48,835 nucleotides of DNA. Source: an uncultured Bacteroidota bacterium. GTDB taxonomy: Bacteria; Bacteroidota; Bacteroidia; Flavobacteriales; Flavobacteriaceae. The notes beneath the pieces were generated by a model. It was not told the origin of the DNA. It did no database searches and worked only from the letters and a program-made list of their open reading frames with translations. Location: NCBI GenBank assembly GCA_902618245.1, contig CACMZR010000011.1, forward strand, positions 1 through 48,835, given 5' to 3'. The position numbers and the translations under genes were made by a program. This document shows positions 14,191-23,608 of this stretch, piece after piece (the stretch's first letter is position 1; each line of letters starts with the position of its first letter).

Positions 14191-14676
14191 ATGAAAAAGA
14201 TTATTTATTTTTTGTTGCTGGGATTAATAATAAATGCCTGCGGTGAATCAAAACCATCACAAAAACAAACAACTAGTAAAACTGAACAAAACTCAAAAGA
14301 AGAATTAAGCACAAACATTGTCATTAACTCTGATGATACAATGAAGTTCGATAAGAATATATTATTGATACCAGCAGGTAAAAAAATTACTTTAACACTC
14401 AACCATAATGGTAAATTCCCAAAAGTTGGGATGGGTCACAATTTTGTGCTTTTAAAAGCTGATACTAACGTGAGTGAATTTGCTGAAAAAGCCGCCATGG
14501 CTAGAAAAACAGATTACATTCCTGAAGGAGACCAAACCATTGCTTACACGAAGCTTTTAGGGGGAGGTGAAAGTGACACCATAACCTTTGATGCGCCAAA
14601 AAAAGGATACTATACTTTTTTATGCACGTTCCCTGGTCATTGGCAATTAATGAAAGGCAAATTAATAGTGAAATAA
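14191..14676 (+). CDS. Azurin-family blue copper lipoprotein
   Basis: The 161-residue product has a lipoprotein signal peptide with the lipidated cysteine at C17 (LIINACGES), then a polar linker of about 25 residues. All azurin copper ligands are present at the classical spacing: G82-H83 in MGHNF, then C145, H150 and M154 in LCTFPGHWQLM. The matching Pseudomonas spacing is Cys112-His117-Met121. The protein should be a membrane-tethered periplasmic or surface electron carrier. It converges with the small subunit of the flavin dehydrogenase, with 3 bases between stop codons. A role in accepting its electrons is possible but unproven. Confidence 0.93.
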   Translation: MKKIIYFLLLGLIINACGESKPSQKQTTSKTEQNSKEELSTNIVINSDDTMKFDKNILLIPAGKKITLTLNHNGKFPKVGMGHNFVLLKADTNVSEFAEKAAMARKTDYIPEGDQTIAYTKLLGGGESDTITFDAPKKGYYTFLCTFPGHWQLMKGKLIVK

Positions 14677-14679
14677 AAA

Positions 14680-15264
14680 TTATTGAAGGGACCAAGCTTT
14701 ACCTCCAGTTGCTTCATCAAGATCGACGCAACCCACATTTCTTCCTGGAACTGGTTGATAAGCAAGGACATTTTCACCAATATATTCATTGGTCCGAAAC
14801 GCATTGATAGTTAGATTTCTTAACTCAGTGGTAAAACTAGCAGCAATTTTTTCTTCATCACTATTAATATCTTTACTTTTTAAAAATTTGTCTAATAGTT
14901 TATCTAACTCATCAAATCTTAAATCCCTTGTTGGTTTTTGTCCAAATTTAGTTTTTGCAACATCCTTAAAAAGCTTAAGGCTCTTGTTTATATTTTCTTT
15001 TGATTTTTTGTCCCATACTGCATCAATATAATTATCTACAAATTCTGGAAGTTTAAGTTCTATAGCTCCAGGAATGTCTGTTTTTGGAATTATAATTTCC
15101 ATAAGGCGAGAAATCAAATTAAAATCTTCTGATTTAAAAAAAGTTGGGTTGAAAGTTTTAGAAGATTGGCATCTTTGAAATATACTAACTATTGAAGGAG
15201 TTACTATTATAGTCCCAATCCCTTTACCAATGTTCCCTAAAGCCTTTCTCCTATCCATTTCCAA
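14680..15264 (-). CDS. Gluconate 2-dehydrogenase subunit 3 family protein (dehydrogenase small subunit)
   Basis: The 194-residue protein begins with a twin-arginine-like signal (DRRKALGNIGKG, Arg5-Arg6) and a hydrophobic stretch. Its C-terminus carries the family hallmark PVPGRNVGCVDLDEATGGKA. In characterised flavin GMC dehydrogenases of this type, the small subunit supplies the Tat signal and carries the signal-less catalytic subunit to the periplasm. The gene starts 5 bases after the stop of the GMC gene, as expected for such a pair. The real start could be M1 or M3, both just before the twin arginines. Gluconate itself need not be the substrate. Confidence 0.88.
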   Translation of the reverse strand: MEMDRRKALGNIGKGIGTIIVTPSIVSIFQRCQSSKTFNPTFFKSEDFNLISRLMEIIIPKTDIPGAIELKLPEFVDNYIDAVWDKKSKENINKSLKLFKDVAKTKFGQKPTRDLRFDELDKLLDKFLKSKDINSDEEKIAASFTTELRNLTINAFRTNEYIGENVLAYQPVPGRNVGCVDLDEATGGKAWSLQ

Positions 15265-15269
15265 TAAAT

Positions 15270-16961
15270 TTATAAATTTTTCTTATTTAACTCTTGAATT
15301 GCGTGTTTTACAGCTCTTGCTGTGAGGGCCATATATGTTAGTGAAGGATTTGCATTTCCAGAAGAGGTCATACATGATCCATCTGTTACATAAACATTTT
15401 TTACTGCATGAATTTGATTATGTTTATTTAAAACAGAATTTTTAGGGTTGTCACCCATCCTAGCTGTTCCCATTTCATGAATACCATTCCCAAAAATATA
15501 TTTTTTATCATATGGTACTATTTCTTTTGCTCCAGCTGCTTCAAACATTTCAATAGCTTGTTGCATCATGTCTTTTCTCATATTGAGCTCATTTTCCTTT
15601 ATCTCTGCATCAAATACTACCTTTGGTAATCCCCAACTGTCTTTATCATCCTGATCCAGATACATTTTATTTTCATGATATGGTAAAATTTCACCAAATG
15701 CTTGCATTCCAATACTCCATTCACCTGGTTTTGTAATTGATCTTTTAAAGTCTGACCCATATCCGAGTTCTAAAGCATTCTTAGATACTCCTCCTCTGCT
15801 TGCATCTCCCTGATAACCATATCCACGAGTATAGTTTTTTTGATTTGAGTCCCCCCCTACATTTCTAAATCGTGGAATATAAAATCCAGCTGGTTTTCTT
15901 CCTATATAATATTTTTCTTCAATCCCCTCTATTATTGCATCTGCTCCTACTTGAAAATGGTGATCCATAAGATTGTGCCCTAATTCCCCAGAATCATTTC
16001 CCATCCCATTTGGAAAGCGTTCAGATATTGACTGCATTAATATTGACGTCGAACCAACTGTAGATGCACAAAGAAAAATTACTTTTGCCTTGTAATCGAA
16101 AACTTCTTTTGTATTAGAATCGATTACACGGACTCCAATTGCTTTTCTAAGATTTTTATCATAAATAATTTCATGAACTAGAGAGTTGGGCTTAAGTGTC
16201 ATATTACCAGTAAGCTCTGCTGCTGGAAGGGTTGAAGAGTTACTGCTAAAATAGGCTCCATATGGACAACCCCTTCTGCATCTATTTCTGTACTGGCAAC
16301 TAACTCTTCCCAAGCCAGGTTTAGTACCTTCAGTAATGTGAGCAATCCTTGCATTAGAGACTATTCTGTCATCAAATGAATTATTGACTTTTTTTTGGAG
16401 AACTTCTTCTGCACAATTAAGTTCCATAGGCTTTAAATATATCCCATTTGGAAAGTGGGGGAGGTTTTCATTTTTCCCACTAACACCGATATATCGCTCA
16501 ACATAATCATACCAAGGTGCAATATCTTTATATCTAATGGGCCAATCAATTGCTATGCCTTCTTTTAAATTAGCATTAAAATCAAAATCTGTTAATCGAT
16601 AAGTATGCCTAGCCCATAGTAGGGACCTTCCACCCACGTGATACCCTCTTATCCAATTAAATGGCTTTTCTTCCTTGTATGGATGTTCTAGATCGTTTAC
16701 AAAAAAATGTTTTGTAGATTCACTGTTTACATAATCTGTTCTACTCTGTTTTGGTTGTACCCTTTTAATTTCTTGGGTGATGACGTCCCCATTTTTGTAA
16801 TCCCAAGGATCATCATTCATTGTGGTATAATCTTCGATGTGTTTTATCATCCTTCCACGTTCCAATACTAAGGTTTTCAATCCTTTTTCACAAAGTTCTT
16901 TGGCTGCCCAACCACCACTTATACCGGTTCCTATAACAATGGCATCAAATTCGGTTTCCAT
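15270..16961 (-). CDS. GMC-family flavin dehydrogenase, probable glycoside 3-dehydrogenase large subunit
   Basis: The 563-residue protein has the FAD Rossmann motif GTGISGG at 11-17. The GMC segment YHVGGRSLLWARH is at 107-119, and the catalytic pair is H495 (HEMGTARMG) and N538 (NANPSLTYMAL). It also has C222-x5-C228-x3-C232, a cysteine pattern like that which holds the 3Fe-4S cluster in flavin glucose and glucoside dehydrogenases. No signal peptide is present, consistent with export together with the Tat-type small subunit encoded next. The divergent genes (DUF1080, Gfo/Idh/MocA, TIM-barrel proteins) point to oxidation of sugar C3 hydroxyls rather than gluconate; substrate inferred. Confidence 0.88.
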   Translation of the reverse strand: METEFDAIVIGTGISGGWAAKELCEKGLKTLVLERGRMIKHIEDYTTMNDDPWDYKNGDVITQEIKRVQPKQSRTDYVNSESTKHFFVNDLEHPYKEEKPFNWIRGYHVGGRSLLWARHTYRLTDFDFNANLKEGIAIDWPIRYKDIAPWYDYVERYIGVSGKNENLPHFPNGIYLKPMELNCAEEVLQKKVNNSFDDRIVSNARIAHITEGTKPGLGRVSCQYRNRCRRGCPYGAYFSSNSSTLPAAELTGNMTLKPNSLVHEIIYDKNLRKAIGVRVIDSNTKEVFDYKAKVIFLCASTVGSTSILMQSISERFPNGMGNDSGELGHNLMDHHFQVGADAIIEGIEEKYYIGRKPAGFYIPRFRNVGGDSNQKNYTRGYGYQGDASRGGVSKNALELGYGSDFKRSITKPGEWSIGMQAFGEILPYHENKMYLDQDDKDSWGLPKVVFDAEIKENELNMRKDMMQQAIEMFEAAGAKEIVPYDKKYIFGNGIHEMGTARMGDNPKNSVLNKHNQIHAVKNVYVTDGSCMTSSGNANPSLTYMALTARAVKHAIQELNKKNL

Positions 16962-16993
16962 AAAAATTCAATTCGCTCAACTATCTAGTTATT

Positions 16994-17001
16994 CAAATAT
17001 A
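16994..17001 (-). promoter_or_regulatory. -7 element for the GMC dehydrogenase operon
   Basis: The minus strand reads TATATTTG here, an exact TAnnTTTG match that would give a leader of about 25 bases to the ATG at 16961. It lies within a 14-base AT palindrome (16995-17008) in the 118-base region shared with the divergent sugar operon. No TTG is found at the usual -33 spacing. On the plus strand only a one-mismatch -7 (TAAATTTA, 17034-17041) is seen. Confidence 0.4.
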
Positions 17002-17079
17002 TATATTTTCTTTATTGATCATCATAAATTACATAAATTTAGGAACGTGTTACAATAATGAATAAAACAAACAAAGTAT

Positions 17080-18039
17080 ATGAAACCAAATATTTTTACC
17101 AAAGCCACCTTATTGATTCTTTTGATTTTCAATTTTTTGTCATGCAAAAATGAAAATAAAACTAGTAGCCCAAATCAAAAAATTTTTTTTAAGACTTCAT
17201 TAGCTCAATGGTCAATACACAATTCTATTCGTGAGGATGGAGTATCTCCATATGATTTTGCAAAAATCGCACATGATTTAGGTTTTGAAGGACTAGAATA
17301 TGTAAATGATCTTTATTCAGATGTTACTGAAAGTGAAGACAAATCTTTTGCAATAAAAGAATTTGTGTCAAAGAATAATGATCTAGCTGCTAAGTACAAT
17401 TTGAAAAATGTGCTTATTATGATTGACGGCGAGGGGGATTTAGCAAGCTCAAACTCTGAAGAAAGAATGCAAGCTGTTGAAAATCATAAATTATGGATAG
17501 ATGCCGCTAATAAAATGAATTGTTCAGCAATTAGAATAAACTTAAAAGGAGAAAAAGAAATAGAAAGTTGGATAAAATATTCGATAGAAAGTCTTAACGC
17601 CCTAGGAGAATATGCAAAGCCTCTGAACATTAATGTGATTGTAGAAAATCACGGTGGATTATCTTCAAATGCTAGTCTTCTCATGAAAGTTATAAACCAA
17701 GTAAACTTGGAAAATTGCGGCACTTTACCAGACTTTGGTAACTTTTGTATGAGTGAAGGATATGGGTCACTTAAAGACAATAATTGTGAAGACCCTTATG
17801 ATCCGTATTTAGGAGTCTCTGAGATGCTGCCCAGAGCATTTGGTCTGAGTGCAAAATCTTATGAGTTTGATTCTAATGGAGATGAGACCACCTTGAACTA
17901 CTATAAATTATTGTCAATTGCAAAAGATGCAGGATATTCTGGATATATTGGAGTAGAATATGAAGGTGAAAAACTTTCTGAAATAGACGGTATAATTGCA
18001 ACGAAAAAATTACTTGAAAAAGTAGCTTCTAAAATTTAA
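17080..18039 (+). CDS. Lipoprotein TIM-barrel sugar isomerase/epimerase-like protein
   Basis: The 319-residue product has a lipoprotein signal with the lipidated cysteine at C22 (FNFLSCKNENK), followed by a xylose-isomerase-like TIM barrel. Probable metal-binding acids lie in NVIVENHGG, TLPDFGNF and GVEYEGE. Where many relatives have His before the last strands, this one reads AKSYEF, so the metal site may differ. It should work in the periplasm or at the outer surface, unlike the cytoplasmic paralogue encoded from 20386. It is the first gene of the five-gene plus-strand operon. The reaction is unknown; epimerisation or dehydration of a keto-sugar is plausible. Confidence 0.82.
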   Translation: MKPNIFTKATLLILLIFNFLSCKNENKTSSPNQKIFFKTSLAQWSIHNSIREDGVSPYDFAKIAHDLGFEGLEYVNDLYSDVTESEDKSFAIKEFVSKNNDLAAKYNLKNVLIMIDGEGDLASSNSEERMQAVENHKLWIDAANKMNCSAIRINLKGEKEIESWIKYSIESLNALGEYAKPLNINVIVENHGGLSSNASLLMKVINQVNLENCGTLPDFGNFCMSEGYGSLKDNNCEDPYDPYLGVSEMLPRAFGLSAKSYEFDSNGDETTLNYYKLLSIAKDAGYSGYIGVEYEGEKLSEIDGIIATKKLLEKVASKI

Positions 18040-18041
18040 AG

Positions 18042-19253
18042 ATGACCCCTTTTAGACGTTTCCAACTTTCATTCCTTTTTTTCCTTGAGTTTTTTATTTG
18101 GGGAGGATGGTTTGTTACAATGGGAACATTTCTTTCTCAAGAATTTAATGCTTCTGGGGGTCAGCTTGCACTAGCCTATGAGACGCAGTCTATAGGTGCT
18201 ATAATTGCTCCTTTTGTAGTAGGATTAATTGCTGATCGTTATTTTGAAGCCCAAAAAATCTTGGGTATTCTTCACATTATAGGTGCGTCATTATTGTACA
18301 TGGCAAGTAACTCCGCTAGTTTTTCAAATTTTTATCCATACATTTTTATTTACATGCTTTTATATATGCCTACACTAGCTTTGTCAAATTCTGTAGCATT
18401 TCACCAAATGAAAGACCCCTCTAAACAATTTGCATCAATCAGAGTTTTGGGAAGTGTAGGTTGGATAGTCGCAGGATTAGTAATTGGTTTTTTTGCATGG
18501 GAAGGAATGCAGACATTAAAATATTCTTTTTACATGTCCTCTGGTGCTTCTGCAATACTTGGGATTTACTGTTTTATGCTTCCTAATACTCCTCCAAAGT
18601 TAGCTTCTAACAAAAAGTTATCTTTCCGAGAAATAATGGGTATTGATGCATTGTCTATGTTAAAAGATAGAGGTTTCCTATTTTTCTTTATTGCATCAAT
18701 CCTAATTTGTGTCCCATTAGCATTTTATTATCAACATGCTAATCAATTTTTAAATGAGCTAGGAATGAAAGCGGCTGCTTCAAAAATGATTTTAGGCCAA
18801 ATATCAGAAGTGTTATTTTTACTTTTGCTGCCTATTTTTATTAGAAGATATGGAATTAAAAATGCCCTTATTGTCGGTATTTTGGCTTGGGGAATACGCT
18901 ATATTTTATTTGCATATGGAAATGTAGGCACTCAAGTATGGATGTTGATTTTTGGAATCATTCTTCATGGTGTCTGCTACGATTTCTTTTTTGTTTCAGG
19001 CCAAATATATACTGACTTTAAAGCTGGTGAAAAATTCAAAAGTACTGCCCAAGGGTTAATAACTTTGGCGACTTATGGTGTTGGAATGCTGATTGGATTC
19101 CGATTTGCTGGATGGCTAACCGACCAATATGTTACTGATTCAGGTCATTTATGGAAGAATATATGGGTTCAACCTGCTATTTTTTCATTTGTTGTTTTAA
19201 CTTTATTTTTAATCTTTTTTAAGAATGAAACTATTAAAATCAAAACAGTATGA
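18042..19253 (+). CDS. MFS transporter of the nucleoside:H+ symporter type
   Basis: The 403-residue protein has about twelve hydrophobic helices. It starts with FLEFFIWGGWFVTMGTFL, and VVGLIADRYF in the 2-3 loop resembles the NupG/NHS group of the major facilitator superfamily. It is an inner-membrane proton symporter. In Bacteroidota, members of this group often sit beside Gfo/Idh/MocA and DUF1080 genes rather than nucleoside genes. Here it is 2 bases after the TIM-barrel gene and overlaps the oxidoreductase gene by 4 bases, so import of a modified sugar is more likely than nucleoside uptake. That substrate is inference. Confidence 0.85.
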   Translation: MTPFRRFQLSFLFFLEFFIWGGWFVTMGTFLSQEFNASGGQLALAYETQSIGAIIAPFVVGLIADRYFEAQKILGILHIIGASLLYMASNSASFSNFYPYIFIYMLLYMPTLALSNSVAFHQMKDPSKQFASIRVLGSVGWIVAGLVIGFFAWEGMQTLKYSFYMSSGASAILGIYCFMLPNTPPKLASNKKLSFREIMGIDALSMLKDRGFLFFFIASILICVPLAFYYQHANQFLNELGMKAAASKMILGQISEVLFLLLLPIFIRRYGIKNALIVGILAWGIRYILFAYGNVGTQVWMLIFGIILHGVCYDFFFVSGQIYTDFKAGEKFKSTAQGLITLATYGVGMLIGFRFAGWLTDQYVTDSGHLWKNIWVQPAIFSFVVLTLFLIFFKNETIKIKTV

Positions 19254-20389
19254 ATAAAATTAAACTTGGAATATTAGGTGGCGGTGGTGACTCCTTAATA
19301 GGGATACTACACCGTGTTGCCTCAAATATGTATGATCGCTATCAAATAGTCGGAGGAGTTTTTAATCCTAATTATGAAGAAAATTTGAAATTTGCTGATA
19401 AGATTGGAGTCGATACAGATAGGGTCTATATTGACTTTGATACTTTTATAGAGGAAGAAATTAAAAAATCTAGCGAGGAACGTATTGAGGTGGTTTCTGT
19501 TCTTACCCCAAATTTTTTACACTTCCCAATGGCAAAAAAACTTTTGGAGAATGGTTTTCACGTTATCTGCGAAAAACCTTTAACTACATCATATAAAGAA
19601 GCAATTGAATTAGAAACACTCCAAAAAAAACATAACTCTATTTTTGCTGTTACTTATACCTACACTGGTTATCCTATGGTACGGCACATGAAACATTTGA
19701 TAGCCTCAGGTGCCCTTGGGGAGATTCAAAAAACAGATGTGCAATATTATCAAGGATGGATAAATCCAGTCATTCATGACCCTGAAATTCGAAAGACAGT
19801 TTGGCGTCTTGATCCCAAAAAAGCAGGGATTAGCTCATGTATTGGTGATATTGGAACCCATGCATTTCAGATGACTGAATATCTAACAGGAATGGAGGTA
19901 AAATATGTACTTTCAGATCTCAATATGCTATATGATGATAATGAATTGGATCTTGACGGTACAATTCTTATTCGTTTTTCTGAAAAAGTAAAAGGAGTTA
20001 TTCGAGCAAGTCAAATTGCTACAGGAGAAGAAAACGGTCTAACTGTGGCTATTTATGGTAAAAAAGGTGCCTTCAAATGGGAGCAAGAAAATCCAAACAT
20101 ACTTTATCACATAACTGACGACGAGCCTAAAAGAATTATTAAGCCAGGACATGCATATGTTTCTGAAGTTGCGGCTGATGGAACAAAACTACCCGGCGGA
20201 CATCCTGAGGGTATATTTGATGCTATGGGTAATATCTATAAAGGTGTTGCCAAAGCCCTGAGGGACGAAACTGCATTTGATGGAGAATATCCTACGATGA
20301 ACGATGGCGTAAGGGGTATGCTATTTATTGAAAAAGTTGTTGAATCACATAAAAATGGAAATATATGGCTAAGCTTGGAAAGGAAATGA
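19250..20389 (+). CDS. Gfo/Idh/MocA family NAD(P)-dependent oxidoreductase
   Basis: The 379-residue protein has a Rossmann domain opening LGILGGGGDSLIGILHR. It carries the family motif EKPLTTSYKEA (Lys in CEKP) and the catalytic segment GDIGTHAFQM with Asp and His. No signal peptide is present, so it is cytoplasmic. Family members interconvert sugar hydroxyl and keto groups, including C3 oxidation or reduction of glucosides. In this operon it could reduce an imported 3-keto sugar. It overlaps both neighbours by 4 bases (ATGA), suggesting tight stoichiometric coupling. Confidence 0.9.
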   Translation: MNKIKLGILGGGGDSLIGILHRVASNMYDRYQIVGGVFNPNYEENLKFADKIGVDTDRVYIDFDTFIEEEIKKSSEERIEVVSVLTPNFLHFPMAKKLLENGFHVICEKPLTTSYKEAIELETLQKKHNSIFAVTYTYTGYPMVRHMKHLIASGALGEIQKTDVQYYQGWINPVIHDPEIRKTVWRLDPKKAGISSCIGDIGTHAFQMTEYLTGMEVKYVLSDLNMLYDDNELDLDGTILIRFSEKVKGVIRASQIATGEENGLTVAIYGKKGAFKWEQENPNILYHITDDEPKRIIKPGHAYVSEVAADGTKLPGGHPEGIFDAMGNIYKGVAKALRDETAFDGEYPTMNDGVRGMLFIEKVVESHKNGNIWLSLERK

Positions 20390-21447
20390 AAACAGTAAAA
20401 GGACCTGGAATTTTTCTTGCCCAATTTGTTGACAATAAAGCTCCTTTTAACACATTAGAAGGAATGTGTAAGTGGGCATCTGATTTAGGGTATAAAGGAA
20501 TTCAAATCCCTACATGGGAATCATTCTTAATTGATTTAGATAAAGCAGCTGAGAGTAAAACTTATTGTGATGAACTTAAAGGGAAAATAAATTCTTTTGG
20601 TTTAGAAATCACTGAACTTTCAACTCATCTTCAAGGTCAATTGGTCGCTGTTCACCCAGCATACGATTTGATGTTTGATAACTTTGCCCCAGACGCTTTC
20701 AAGAATAATCCTAGGGCGAGGACGGATTGGGCTGTGGAAATAATGAAAAAAGCTGCAAAAGCTAGTAATCATTTGGGCCTCAAAACACATGCGACTTTTT
20801 CAGGGGCTTTACTTTGGCACACTTGGCATCCATGGCCTCAAAGGCCTGAGGGTCTAGTAGAACTTGGATTTAGTGAATTAGCAAAAAGATGGATGCCTAT
20901 TTTGGATATATACGACGAAAATGGTGTTGACGTGTGTTATGAAATTCATCCAGGTGAGGACCTTCATGATGGTGTAACGTTTGAGCGCTTTCTTGAGGCA
21001 ACAAACAACCACAAGAGAGTAAATATTTTATATGATCCAAGTCATTTTGTTCTGCAACAGCTTGATTATATTGAGTATATTGATCACTACCACGATTTTA
21101 TTAAATCATTTCACGTAAAGGATTCTGAATTTAAACCAACGGGTAAAAAGGGGGCGTTTGGTGGTTACGGTGATTGGATTGACCGCGCTGGACGTTATCG
21201 TTCTCCAGGAGATGGTCAAATTGACTTTAAATCTATATTTACTAAACTTACTGAATATGGCTGTGATGTATGGGCAGTGATGGAATGGGAATGCTGCATA
21301 AAAAGCCCCGAACAAGGAGCTAGAGAAGGTGCTCCGTTCATTAAAAGACATATAATTGAAGCCACTCAAAAGACTTTCGATGACTTTGCAGGAGGTAAAA
21401 TCGATGAGCAATTATTAAAAAATATTTTAAACTTGAAAAAACAATGA
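20386..21447 (+). CDS. Cytoplasmic TIM-barrel sugar isomerase/epimerase
   Basis: From the ATG at 20386 the product is 353 residues. An earlier in-frame ATG at 20365 is rejected because the later one makes the ATGA overlap used throughout this operon and has GGAAAGG just upstream. The xylose-isomerase-like barrel has candidate metal ligands in order: Glu in CYEIHPGE, Asp and His in YDPSHF, His in FHVKDSEF and Glu in VMEWECC. There is no signal peptide. Homologues act as keto-sugar epimerases or isomerases. Within this operon a step after 3-keto sugar formation or reduction is likely. Confidence 0.87.
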   Translation: MKTVKGPGIFLAQFVDNKAPFNTLEGMCKWASDLGYKGIQIPTWESFLIDLDKAAESKTYCDELKGKINSFGLEITELSTHLQGQLVAVHPAYDLMFDNFAPDAFKNNPRARTDWAVEIMKKAAKASNHLGLKTHATFSGALLWHTWHPWPQRPEGLVELGFSELAKRWMPILDIYDENGVDVCYEIHPGEDLHDGVTFERFLEATNNHKRVNILYDPSHFVLQQLDYIEYIDHYHDFIKSFHVKDSEFKPTGKKGAFGGYGDWIDRAGRYRSPGDGQIDFKSIFTKLTEYGCDVWAVMEWECCIKSPEQGAREGAPFIKRHIIEATQKTFDDFAGGKIDEQLLKNILNLKKQ

Positions 21448-22166
21448 AAAATACTATTCTTATACTAATAATGATGTTTTTATTTTTGAGTAATGGAAAC
21501 GAAAATAATAATCATAACGATGCAAATGATTGGGAATCCCTTTTTGATGGTAAAACATTAAATGGATGGCATAGATACAATCGAAAGGGTGTAAAGCCTA
21601 TATGGACAGCAAAAAAAGGAGTATTGACTTTTGATCCAAATTTAATTCAGAGAGGAGACTATGTTCATGACCTTGTTACAGATAAGATTTTCAAAAGCTT
21701 TCAACTTTCAATAGAATGGAATATTTCAGAAGGTGGAAACAGTGGAATTTTTTGGGGAGTACAAGAGGGTGAAGACCTTAATAAGCCATACTCCACTGGT
21801 CCAGAAATCCAAATATTAGATAATGAACGTCATCCAGATGCAAAAGCTAACCCAAAATTTCATCAAGCAGGTGCGCTTTACGATATTGTGCAGCCTAGTA
21901 AAGATGTTTGCAAACCTGCTGGGCAATGGAATCATGTATTATTAACAGTTGATCATAGAAAAAATGAAGGTAGTGTTGTCCTTAATGGAACAAAAATTGT
22001 TGAATTCCCATTGAGAGGCGAAAAATGGGAATCTCTAATTTCAAATTCGAAATTCGGCGATAAATGCGAGTACAAAAGATTTGCTAGACTAAAATCTGGA
22101 AAAATAAGTTTACAGGACCACGGGAATAAAGTATCATTTAGAAATATTAAGATTCGAAGACTATAA
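21444..22166 (+). CDS. Exported DUF1080 protein, probable 3-keto-disaccharide hydrolase/lyase
   Basis: The 240-residue product has a signal peptide (hydrophobic residues 4-17). Its single DUF1080 (concanavalin-like) domain has the hallmarks SLFDGKTLNGWH, GGNSGIFWGVQEG, GPEIQILDNERHPDA and HQAGALYDI. DUF1080 proteins are described as 3-keto-disaccharide hydrolases and related lyases, which cleave glycosides only after C3 oxidation. It would act in the periplasm on the product of the flavin dehydrogenase encoded divergently. The gene overlaps the preceding one by 4 bases and ends 13 bases before yicC. Confidence 0.87.
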   Translation: MKNTILILIMMFLFLSNGNENNNHNDANDWESLFDGKTLNGWHRYNRKGVKPIWTAKKGVLTFDPNLIQRGDYVHDLVTDKIFKSFQLSIEWNISEGGNSGIFWGVQEGEDLNKPYSTGPEIQILDNERHPDAKANPKFHQAGALYDIVQPSKDVCKPAGQWNHVLLTVDHRKNEGSVVLNGTKIVEFPLRGEKWESLISNSKFGDKCEYKRFARLKSGKISLQDHGNKVSFRNIKIRRL

Positions 22167-22179
22167 TTAAGATAAACAT

Positions 22180-23037
22180 ATGATACTATCCATGACAGGT
22201 TTTGGAAAAAAGGAATTCCAATACAAGGACAAGTGCATTAGTGTTGAAATACGCTCTTTAAATAGTAAGAATACAGATATTACAATTAGAACTCCTAACT
22301 ACTTAAGACCTCTAGACCTTGAGATTAGAAAAAAACTTGCAATTAAGATGCAAAGGGGTAAAATTGATTTAAATATACATATTGAATTTACCAGAGATTT
22401 TGTACCTACATCGATTAACAACAAAATAGTCAAAGCTTACATGAAACAATTAGAAGAAATTGGATCGTCTACCGAAAGTGAGCGAATATCGATGGCAATG
22501 CGTCTACCTGAGGCCTTCTCTTCGGATAAAGAAGAATTGAATGAGGAAGAAAAAAAGATTCTTTTATCTAATCTAGATATAGTAATCAGCGATATAAAAG
22601 ATTTTCAAAGAAATGAGGGTGTTGAAATGCAAAAAGACATTGAATTAAGATTAAATTTAATTGATTCACATTTGAAAAATGTTATTGAATTAGAGCCTAA
22701 ACGAATTGAAAAAATGAGAGAAAAGCTTTTGGCTTCAATACAAAGTCTCAAGATTGAAATTGATGCTAACCGATTTGAGCAAGAAATGATATTCTACCTT
22801 GAGAAATTTGATATAACAGAGGAAAAAGTACGTTTAAAAAATCATATCAAATATTTTCGGGAAGTTACAAATGAAGATTCTCCTAATGGGAAAAAACTTG
22901 GCTTTATTGCTCAAGAGATGGGTAGAGAGATAAATACCATAGGTTCAAAAGCTAATGACGCTCATCTCCAAAAAATTGTTGTTCAAATGAAAGACGAATT
23001 AGAGAAAATTAAAGAGCAACTCCTTAACATTTTATAG
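22180..23037 (+). CDS. yicC: YicC family endoribonuclease
   Basis: The 285-residue protein starts with the YicC hallmark MILSMTGFGKKEF and continues through the YicC N-domain (NLRSLN-like segment EIRSLNSKN). It ends with the DUF1732 part, including FIAQEMGREINTIGSKAND. YicC proteins are cytoplasmic RNases acting on small RNAs and other RNA targets. In Bacteroidota the gene is regularly followed by gmk and nadD, as here. Only 13 bases separate it from the DUF1080 gene, so the sugar operon may read into it. Confidence 0.93.
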   Translation: MILSMTGFGKKEFQYKDKCISVEIRSLNSKNTDITIRTPNYLRPLDLEIRKKLAIKMQRGKIDLNIHIEFTRDFVPTSINNKIVKAYMKQLEEIGSSTESERISMAMRLPEAFSSDKEELNEEEKKILLSNLDIVISDIKDFQRNEGVEMQKDIELRLNLIDSHLKNVIELEPKRIEKMREKLLASIQSLKIEIDANRFEQEMIFYLEKFDITEEKVRLKNHIKYFREVTNEDSPNGKKLGFIAQEMGREINTIGSKANDAHLQKIVVQMKDELEKIKEQLLNIL

Positions 23038-23038
23038 A

Positions 23039-23608
23039 TTGGATTCAGGAAAACTTGTTGTCCTATCGGCTCCTTCAGGAAGTGGTAAAACATCACTTGT
23101 TAAAGAGCTATTAAAGGAAAAACTCAATCTTGGTTTTTCAATTTCCGCAACTTCTAGAGCTCCTAGAGGAAAAGAAAAAAATAATTTAGATTATTACTTT
23201 TTGAGTAATGATGAATTTGTTGAAAAAATCAATGAAAATGCTTTTTTAGAGTATGAAGAAGTTTATAAAGGAACCTTTTATGGAACATTAAAAAATGAGA
23301 TTAAAAGAATTTGGGAATCAGGAAAACACGTGCTTTTTGATATTGATGTTTATGGTGGTATTAAAATTAAAAACCAATATCCAGAAAATACTTTATCTGT
23401 TTTTATTATGCCTCCCTCAATAAAGGAGTTGGAAATAAGACTAAGAAAACGGGGTACGGAAAGTGAAGAAAAAATCAAACATCGTCTTAATAAATCAAAG
23501 GAAGAATTGTCCTTTTCAAAAAAATTTGATGTGGTAGTTATGAATGATGATTTTATAGAAACGAAAATTAAATTAATAGAAATTGTAAATGAATTCATAA
23601 AATCTTAA
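23039..23608 (+). CDS. gmk: Guanylate kinase
   Basis: The 189-residue enzyme has the P-loop SAPSGSGKTSL near residue 10. It also has the GMP-binding stretch SATSRAPRGKE with DYYFLS, and the catalytic segment VLFDIDVYGGIKI. It phosphorylates GMP to GDP and is essential. The start is TTG at 23039, one base after the yicC stop, since no ATG or GTG precedes the P-loop at the right distance. A weak start may set a low level relative to yicC. Length is slightly shorter than the E. coli enzyme but complete. Confidence 0.95.
   Translation: MDSGKLVVLSAPSGSGKTSLVKELLKEKLNLGFSISATSRAPRGKEKNNLDYYFLSNDEFVEKINENAFLEYEEVYKGTFYGTLKNEIKRIWESGKHVLFDIDVYGGIKIKNQYPENTLSVFIMPPSIKELEIRLRKRGTESEEKIKHRLNKSKEELSFSKKFDVVVMNDDFIETKIKLIEIVNEFIKS

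Follow-up and report, generated by a model that had tools for sequence, protein, structure and literature searches.

A conserved flavobacterial locus for proposed glycoside cleavage through 3-keto intermediates, with azurin or cytochrome c beside its dehydrogenase

Seven genes in two divergent halves

We analysed a stretch of 48,835 nucleotides (the window; contig CACMZR010000011.1 of assembly GCA_902618245.1, positions 1 to 48,835, forward strand) from an uncultured marine member of the Flavobacteriaceae. The source genome is a 1.83-Mb draft that is 86% complete and includes a TatC gene. Seven adjacent genes in the window encode a flavin dehydrogenase of the GMC family, its small subunit with a twin-arginine translocation (Tat) signal, two TIM barrels (TIM1 and TIM2), a symporter of the major facilitator superfamily (MFS), a Gfo/Idh/MocA oxidoreductase (Gfo) and a DUF1080 protein (Table 1). 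We read them as a locus for using glycosides without hydrolysis, in which a glycoside would be oxidised and split by elimination, and the product imported, hydrated and reduced. We put the probability of this reading at roughly 83%.

Table 1. Features at the locus, with positions in the window
Feature	Position	Strand	Basis
Azurin lipoprotein (AZU)	14191..14676	+	TIGR02695 107.7 bits, curated cut-off 105.1; convergent with Tat subunit
Small Tat-signal subunit, Gluconate_2-dh3	14680..15264	-	PF13618 2.2e-24; probable start ATG of MDRRKAL
Flavin GMC dehydrogenase, large subunit	15270..16961	-	GMC_oxred_N (PF00732) 6.4e-12; GMC_oxred_C (PF05199) 2.3e-22
118-bp gap separating the divergent halves	16962..17079	.	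Coordinates, sequence
TIM1, lipoprotein TIM barrel	17080..18039	+	AP_endonuc_2 8.4e-21; lipobox FLSC
MFS symporter, nucleoside:H+ symporter family	18042..19253	+	Nuc_H_symport PF03825 2.5e-110
Gfo/Idh/MocA oxidoreductase, cytoplasmic; proposed 3-keto-glucose reductase	19250..20389	+	PF01408, PF22725; PDB 3v5n 7.5e-86
TIM2, probable 2-hydroxy-3-keto-glucal hydratase (AtHYD family)	20365..21447	+	AP_endonuc_2 3.3e-37; PDB 8ro4 E 1.7e-163
DUF1080 (3keto-disac_hyd), proposed 3-keto-glycoside lyase	21444..22166	+	PF06439 9.6e-47; PDB 3h3l 3.9e-40, 8rr2 9.3e-34, 8tda 9.8e-34

The original prediction, made on the letters of this DNA, placed seven genes of named families side by side at 14680..22166 in two divergent halves. 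All seven open frames were confirmed there, and coordinates and Pfam assignments agree. The gap between the halves presumably carries the promoters of both; no promoter motif was identified in it. In the right half, four-base overlaps join the MFS gene to the Gfo gene and the TIM2 gene to the DUF1080 gene. TIM2 more likely starts at codon 8 (about 20386) than at 20365, because its alignment with 8ro4 begins at residue 8, and with this start its gene would likewise overlap the Gfo gene by four bases. Hence, the right half reads as one operon.

Leader signals were judged by eye. The two arginines of the small subunit's twin-arginine start (R5 and R6) are conserved in 97% or more of the 56 sequences that we aligned. 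The GMC large subunit has no leader of its own and is presumably exported together with the Tat subunit. The N-terminus of the DUF1080 protein is hydrophobic and has no lipobox, and export of this protein is plausible. No leader is apparent on Gfo or TIM2.

A Pfam scan of the seven genes and three neighbours found no glycoside hydrolase, nor the SusC/SusD pair that would mark a polysaccharide utilisation locus. No Rfam family reaches its gathering score in the window. Genes resembling yicC and gmk come after the locus (window 22180-23608), as they do in relatives. A yicC match occurs in 67 of 80 loci, a long-lasting synteny with apparent housekeeping genes.

The hydratase, its partners and the proposed route

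TIM2 is probably a hydratase, not an isomerase. It aligns with 8ro4, a structure named as a 2-hydroxy-3-keto-glucal hydratase, at 547 bits over 348 residues. Residues E193, H195, D224, H250 and E307/E309, which are probably metal or catalytic positions, are identical in the two proteins and also kept in the hydratase family. The cytoplasmic isomerisation that the original prediction assigned to this barrel thus gives way to a hydration. By gene content, three marks of a 3-keto pathway are present at the locus: the hydratase, an adjoining Gfo reductase and a protein that scores far over the cut-off of the 3-keto-glycoside cleaving family (PF06439). Against the NCBIfam model BT_2158_fam the Gfo protein scores 31.1 bits, far short of the cut-off of 750.

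The partners of the hydratase are conserved. Our comparison rests on the 80 best-matching hydratase loci from named genomes, a sample that leans to Flavobacteriaceae (the named genera include Zobellia, Maribacter, Robertkochia, Galbibacter and Arenibacter). From these loci we took 56 stretches of at least 18 kb, all with a hydratase by construction, and scored a gene as present wherever in the stretch tblastn matched it at E 1e-10, so that paralogues count too. GMC and Gfo were present in all 56 stretches, DUF1080 in 55, MFS in 46 and TIM1 in 42; 33 stretches had all seven genes. The Tat subunit was present in 44, with some stretches ending before they reach it. The divergent halves therefore do occur together in relatives, and since the gene arrangement is conserved across the family it is not due to chance. 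Within the genus, 35 of 37 genomes (drafts of about 1.0-2.2 Mb) have a hydratase match, one of them a fragment. At E 1e-20 the hydratase was found in none of 23 genomes from other families of the order. Across Bacteroidota it has a match in 118 of 395 genomes, in two groups, one at 61% identity or more and the other at about 31-35%.

We propose the following route. In the periplasm, the GMC-Tat flavoenzyme would oxidise a glucosyl or similar residue at C3; the electrons would go to a lipoprotein carrier anchored in the membrane, which at this locus is azurin. DUF1080, and possibly TIM1 too, would then split the 3-keto-glycoside by elimination into an aglycone or second sugar and 2-hydroxy-3-keto-glucal. 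The MFS symporter would bring in the keto-glycal or keto-sugar, the cytoplasmic hydratase TIM2 would add water to yield 3-keto-glucose, and Gfo would reduce this to glucose with NAD(P)H. The central idea of the original prediction, a 3-keto route with periplasmic oxidation and cytoplasmic reduction, is supported by the gene families and their co-occurrence. Such a route would let one oxidising enzyme set serve many glycosides without a bond-specific glycoside hydrolase. It can escape surveys based on counts of glycoside hydrolases, despite the presence of the hydratase in nearly all genomes of the genus.

TIM1 may have a part in cleavage too. Its sequence profile matches PDB entry 4ovx best (2.7e-103), followed by the C-glycoside deglycosidases DgpC1 (1.2e-11) and DgpC (6.2e-11), and only then by epimerases (3.1e-5). 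The protein keeps E189, D218 and E293 as well as the catalytic histidine, H191; Ser257 takes the place of the metal-ligand histidine that deglycosidases have next to a conserved lysine. These residue roles were transferred from PMC10628242 through the alignment. Hence, TIM1 has the catalytic histidine of a C-glycoside deglycosidase alpha subunit and an incomplete version of its E, D, H, E metal site. One could also argue that TIM1 is not a lyase at all but a 3-keto-glycoside epimerase, comparable to the 3-keto-glucoside 4-epimerase YcjR of E. coli, and lets the pathway accept more substrates. The lost histidine would fit this idea, as would the fact that TIM1 is sometimes missing from the locus, and YcjR (6wn6) is among the Foldseek matches of the TIM1 structure model (pLDDT 90.6), at E 5.7e-10 and rank 49. 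The order of the profile matches and the retained H191 speak for the deglycosidase side, and we consider an epimerase a serious but less favoured possibility. AtOGE (8bvk), the cleaving TIM barrel of Agrobacterium tumefaciens, is neither among the listed sequence matches of TIM1 nor among its 50 listed fold matches; the two may nevertheless be kin.

Related genes occur elsewhere in the same genome and within other loci. The source genome holds six DUF1080 matches and four GMC genes. A second set of DUF1080, Tat-type small subunit and GMC genes in this genome (G000:C3:29952-36080, L176:5953-12081) is followed by two genes that, by eye, resemble a carbohydrate kinase and a KDPG aldolase; this set may encode a 3-keto or keto-acid route whose last step is KDPG cleavage. 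A frame of 463 codons with two DUF1080 domains (G000:C16:11599-12990, L178:7600-8991) lies beside genes with twin-arginine-like starts. In Maribacter/Zobellia-type loci, among them L123, L145 and L110, a second GMC paralogue (about 55-61%) stands between Gfo and the hydratase, and an extra DUF1080 gene comes after it in all three loci tested (L098, L123, L145).

Azurin and cytochrome c beside the Tat subunit

The locus encodes both a GMC large subunit and a Tat-signal Gluconate_2-dh3 subunit, the families to which we take LacA and LacC of LacABC-type dehydrogenases to belong, LacB presumably being the cytochrome c subunit. There is no gene for a cytochrome c subunit at the window locus, which is therefore not classed as LacABC proper. 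Instead, a gene for an azurin lipoprotein runs towards the Tat gene, and three bases separate the two stop codons. The original prediction passed over this neighbour, which we read as the probable electron acceptor of the dehydrogenase.

In relatives, the same site holds either an azurin lipoprotein or a cytochrome c lipoprotein. All four tested of 13 cytochrome candidates have PF00034. Among 38 genomes of the genus, with a clear cytochrome match defined as E below 1e-25, 12 carry only azurin, 20 only the cytochrome, two both and four neither. In total, azurin occurs in 14 genomes and the cytochrome in 22; one of these cytochromes has only 46% identity, and another is a 76-residue fragment containing a stop. 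The two carriers exclude each other more than expected (Fisher p = 4.5e-5, a test that ignores relatedness). The window genome itself gave only a weak match to the cytochrome query, within a 445-codon frame (34%, E 3.9e-11).

All 14 azurins adjoin a GMC-Tat pair. In one genome with both carriers (G009) the cytochrome intervenes: the end of an azurin (31 residues, at a contig edge) is followed in tandem by the cytochrome and then by the Tat gene. In the other (G004), a distance of about 1.3 kb separates the cytochrome gene from the Tat gene at the main locus; the azurin gene is convergent with a second, paralogous GMC-Tat pair, at its 3' end (L183:1514-4217, G004:C5). Several cytochrome genes are separated from the Tat gene by 0.5 to 1.5 kb or are on other contigs; in G008 a 24-residue cytochrome remnant abuts the Tat gene and the full gene is elsewhere.

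In a neighbouring lineage of 11 genomes, azurin is present in seven. In two of the other four the azurin query matches only the first 40-51 residues (the leader, at 54-60%), and in two it matches nothing. One locus of this lineage (L085) has a decayed cytochrome remnant with stops (L085:5033-5275) between an intact azurin gene and the Tat gene. The leader motif F[EKQ][YF][KEN]R is found in all 13 cytochromes and in six of the 12 azurins examined, all six from the neighbouring lineage.

We mapped the carriers on a DNA tree of the hydratase with 49 rows. With 17 rows scored as azurin and 21 as cytochrome, the tree requires a minimum of seven changes, or eight after branches with SH-aLRT below 90 or 95 are collapsed, compared with 8 to 17 (mean 12.7) in 500 shuffles. 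Hence, the carrier appears to be partly inherited and to have been switched repeatedly. The uncounted rows are two with both carriers, three with neither and six outgroup loci. States were assigned by hand; the cytochrome type includes three loci in which that gene is some way from the Tat gene, at about 1.3 kb in L073 and L028 and at 0.5 kb in L080. L174, L175 and L165 repeat the genomes of L100, L077 and L086. The tree omits G452 and G020, for which no hydratase locus was retrieved, and G022, in which the flank is too short.

These observations suggest that the azurin and cytochrome c lipoproteins are interchangeable electron acceptors of the sugar dehydrogenase. On a broader reading, to which we give even odds, a clade of small-genome marine Flavobacteriaceae has repeatedly exchanged the acceptor of GMC-Tat between cytochrome c and azurin at one site, partly by joining a different redox domain to an unchanged lipoprotein leader, and a tandem intermediate and a decaying cytochrome can still be seen. 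The exchange would be a heterotroph counterpart of that between plastocyanin and cytochrome c6 and could reflect the supply of iron versus copper in the ocean. If this is true, the exchange ties sugar use to ocean metal supply, and sister genomes that differ in their carrier form a clean natural experiment. A limited literature search found no earlier account of azurin/cytochrome c exchange in Flavobacteriia, and the variation beside the dehydrogenase looks like the new part of our analysis.

Alternatively, the carrier gene may belong to an unrelated respiratory protein that stays beside the Tat subunit through synteny only. The gene is convergent with the Tat gene and outside the operon, and some cytochromes are distant or on other contigs, as described above. 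All 16 more distant Flavobacteriaceae loci that extend at least 700 bp past the Tat gene lack a match to either carrier in the stretch searched, and three loci of the genus (L084, L157, L160) have neither one adjoining that gene. Synteny alone would not account well for a redox protein being exchanged at one site, nor for an azurin that is convergent with the second GMC-Tat pair in G004. A cytochrome c gene is also annotated inside the Xanthomonas and Hymenobacter modules described below (not in that of Pseudoalteromonas). We regard an unrelated carrier as rather unlikely.

The pathway weighed against known systems

Several observations weigh against a 3-keto pathway with a flavin first step. 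First, the best solved relatives of the GMC enzyme are a fructose dehydrogenase large subunit (E 4.1e-37) and a glucose dehydrogenase (7.8e-31). These dehydrogenases are not known to oxidise C3, and no enzyme named as a C3 dehydrogenase is among the 46 solved-structure matches. The original prediction feared alcohol or gluconate dehydrogenases without C3 activity as closest relatives, and the relatives found bear on this concern. The Tat subunit has no solved-structure match at E 0.001. His495 and Asn538 of GMC, which we take to be the catalytic residues, are conserved in at least 97% of 69 sequences. We infer oxidation at C3 from the locus context, because a 3-keto intermediate would explain the presence of a hydratase and DUF1080.

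Second, the genes do not always travel together. TIM1 and MFS are missing at 11 loci of the neighbouring lineage, and two loci (L089, L102) have no DUF1080. Eight of the 11 neighbouring-lineage genomes without TIM1 at the locus carry a TIM1 relative elsewhere (48-57%, two partial), and both genomes without DUF1080 at the locus hold other DUF1080 genes. Since genomes lacking either gene at the locus mostly hold relatives elsewhere, the idea that TIM1 and DUF1080 are alternating lyases is not supported by these genome-wide searches.

Third, plasmids present a looser picture. We searched nine plasmid stretches with the window proteins (no match meaning none at E 1e-4). On three of them, GMC, DUF1080, hydratase and Gfo relatives occur side by side, which speaks for the pathway. 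The stretches from Xanthomonas sacchari (L147) and from Hymenobacter (L151) have matches to GMC (54/53%), the hydratase (59/65%), MFS (54/56%), Gfo (28/38%), DUF1080 (27%) and the Tat subunit (24/21%). The Pseudoalteromonas plasmid (L149) matches the hydratase at 68%, Gfo at 39%, DUF1080 at 37% and GMC at only 30%; its annotated Tat-subunit-type gene and MFS have no match to those of the window. Five stretches (L148, L152-L155) have the hydratase and Gfo without GMC, Tat subunit, DUF1080, TIM1 or MFS, so the hydratase by itself is no proof of a GMC first step. One (L150) has GMC, Tat subunit and DUF1080 without hydratase or Gfo, and TIM1 has a match in none of the nine. A Gfo relative adjoins the hydratase relative in all eight stretches that hold one. 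Hence, the tight unit is hydratase plus Gfo, and GMC and DUF1080 are frequent, not obligatory, partners outside flavobacteria.

Elimination is not the only chemistry that DUF1080 could perform. It could be a true 3-keto-glycoside hydrolase, with 3-keto-glucose being imported and the hydratase handling keto-glycals from TIM1 or from spontaneous elimination. The Pfam name of the PF06439 family is that of a hydrolase, and periplasmic hydrolysis of 3'-ketolactose is proposed in PMC9007349. Yet the operon needs its hydratase only if the glycoside is split by elimination. In addition, a Bacteroides DUF1080 enzyme is reportedly a Ca2+ lyase. We consider a hydrolase improbable. Even less can be said for a gluconate/fructose-type oxidation system unrelated to glycoside cleavage, which the solved relatives of GMC might suggest and which the sharing of one locus by DUF1080 and a keto-glucal hydratase across the family makes very improbable.

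The original prediction offered both the assembled pathway and the flavin first step as inference; both are already published (PMC10628242, PMC9007349). Our locus is a well-conserved member of a known non-hydrolytic pathway. The A. tumefaciens operon encodes a flavin dehydrogenase (GlycDH) with a Tat protein, AtOGE, AtHYD and Gfo for oxidation, elimination, hydration and reduction, the evidence for AtHYD being termed preliminary (PMC10628242). The same four steps serve levoglucosan use in Bacillus smithii (PMC7676230). LacABC-type dehydrogenases have been tied to DUF1080 in Caulobacter and other lactose users; the putative lactose dehydrogenase of Pedobacter gave phenotypes, and its ten DUF1080 genes gave no lactose phenotype, a further point against our reading (PMC9007349).

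The locus can be compared with the A. tumefaciens operon, with which it shares the flavin enzyme and its Tat-signal partner, a hydratase of the same family, Gfo and the four-step chemistry. The cleaving enzyme differs, being the Mn TIM barrel AtOGE in A. tumefaciens and DUF1080 plus a different kind of TIM barrel in the window, which also adds the MFS symporter and azurin (PMC10628242). By family and gene content, the locus is also like LacABC with DUF1080 in Caulobacter and Pedobacter, where a three-component dehydrogenase is clustered with an exported DUF1080 protein, Bacteroidota included; azurin, hydratase and TIM1 go unmentioned for that system in the available part of PMC9007349. Bacteroides thetaiotaomicron shares the 3-keto route and a DUF1080 enzyme, BT2157. 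Its first step is taken by the glycoside 3-dehydrogenase BT2158, in contrast to the flavin GMC enzyme proposed here (PMC9007349, PMC11300592).

TIM1 resembles the C-glycoside deglycosidases DgpB/C, DfgA/B and CarB/C in fold, profile and the positions of the four retained residues. It differs from them in the serine at the beta-7 histidine, in being a lipoprotein and in that no small-subunit gene is seen in the locus. Finally, plastocyanin and cytochrome c6 of phototrophs are copper and heme carriers that replace each other at one step. In contrast to that pair, azurin and cytochrome c stand beside a sugar dehydrogenase in heterotrophs and alternate by gene replacement between related genomes.

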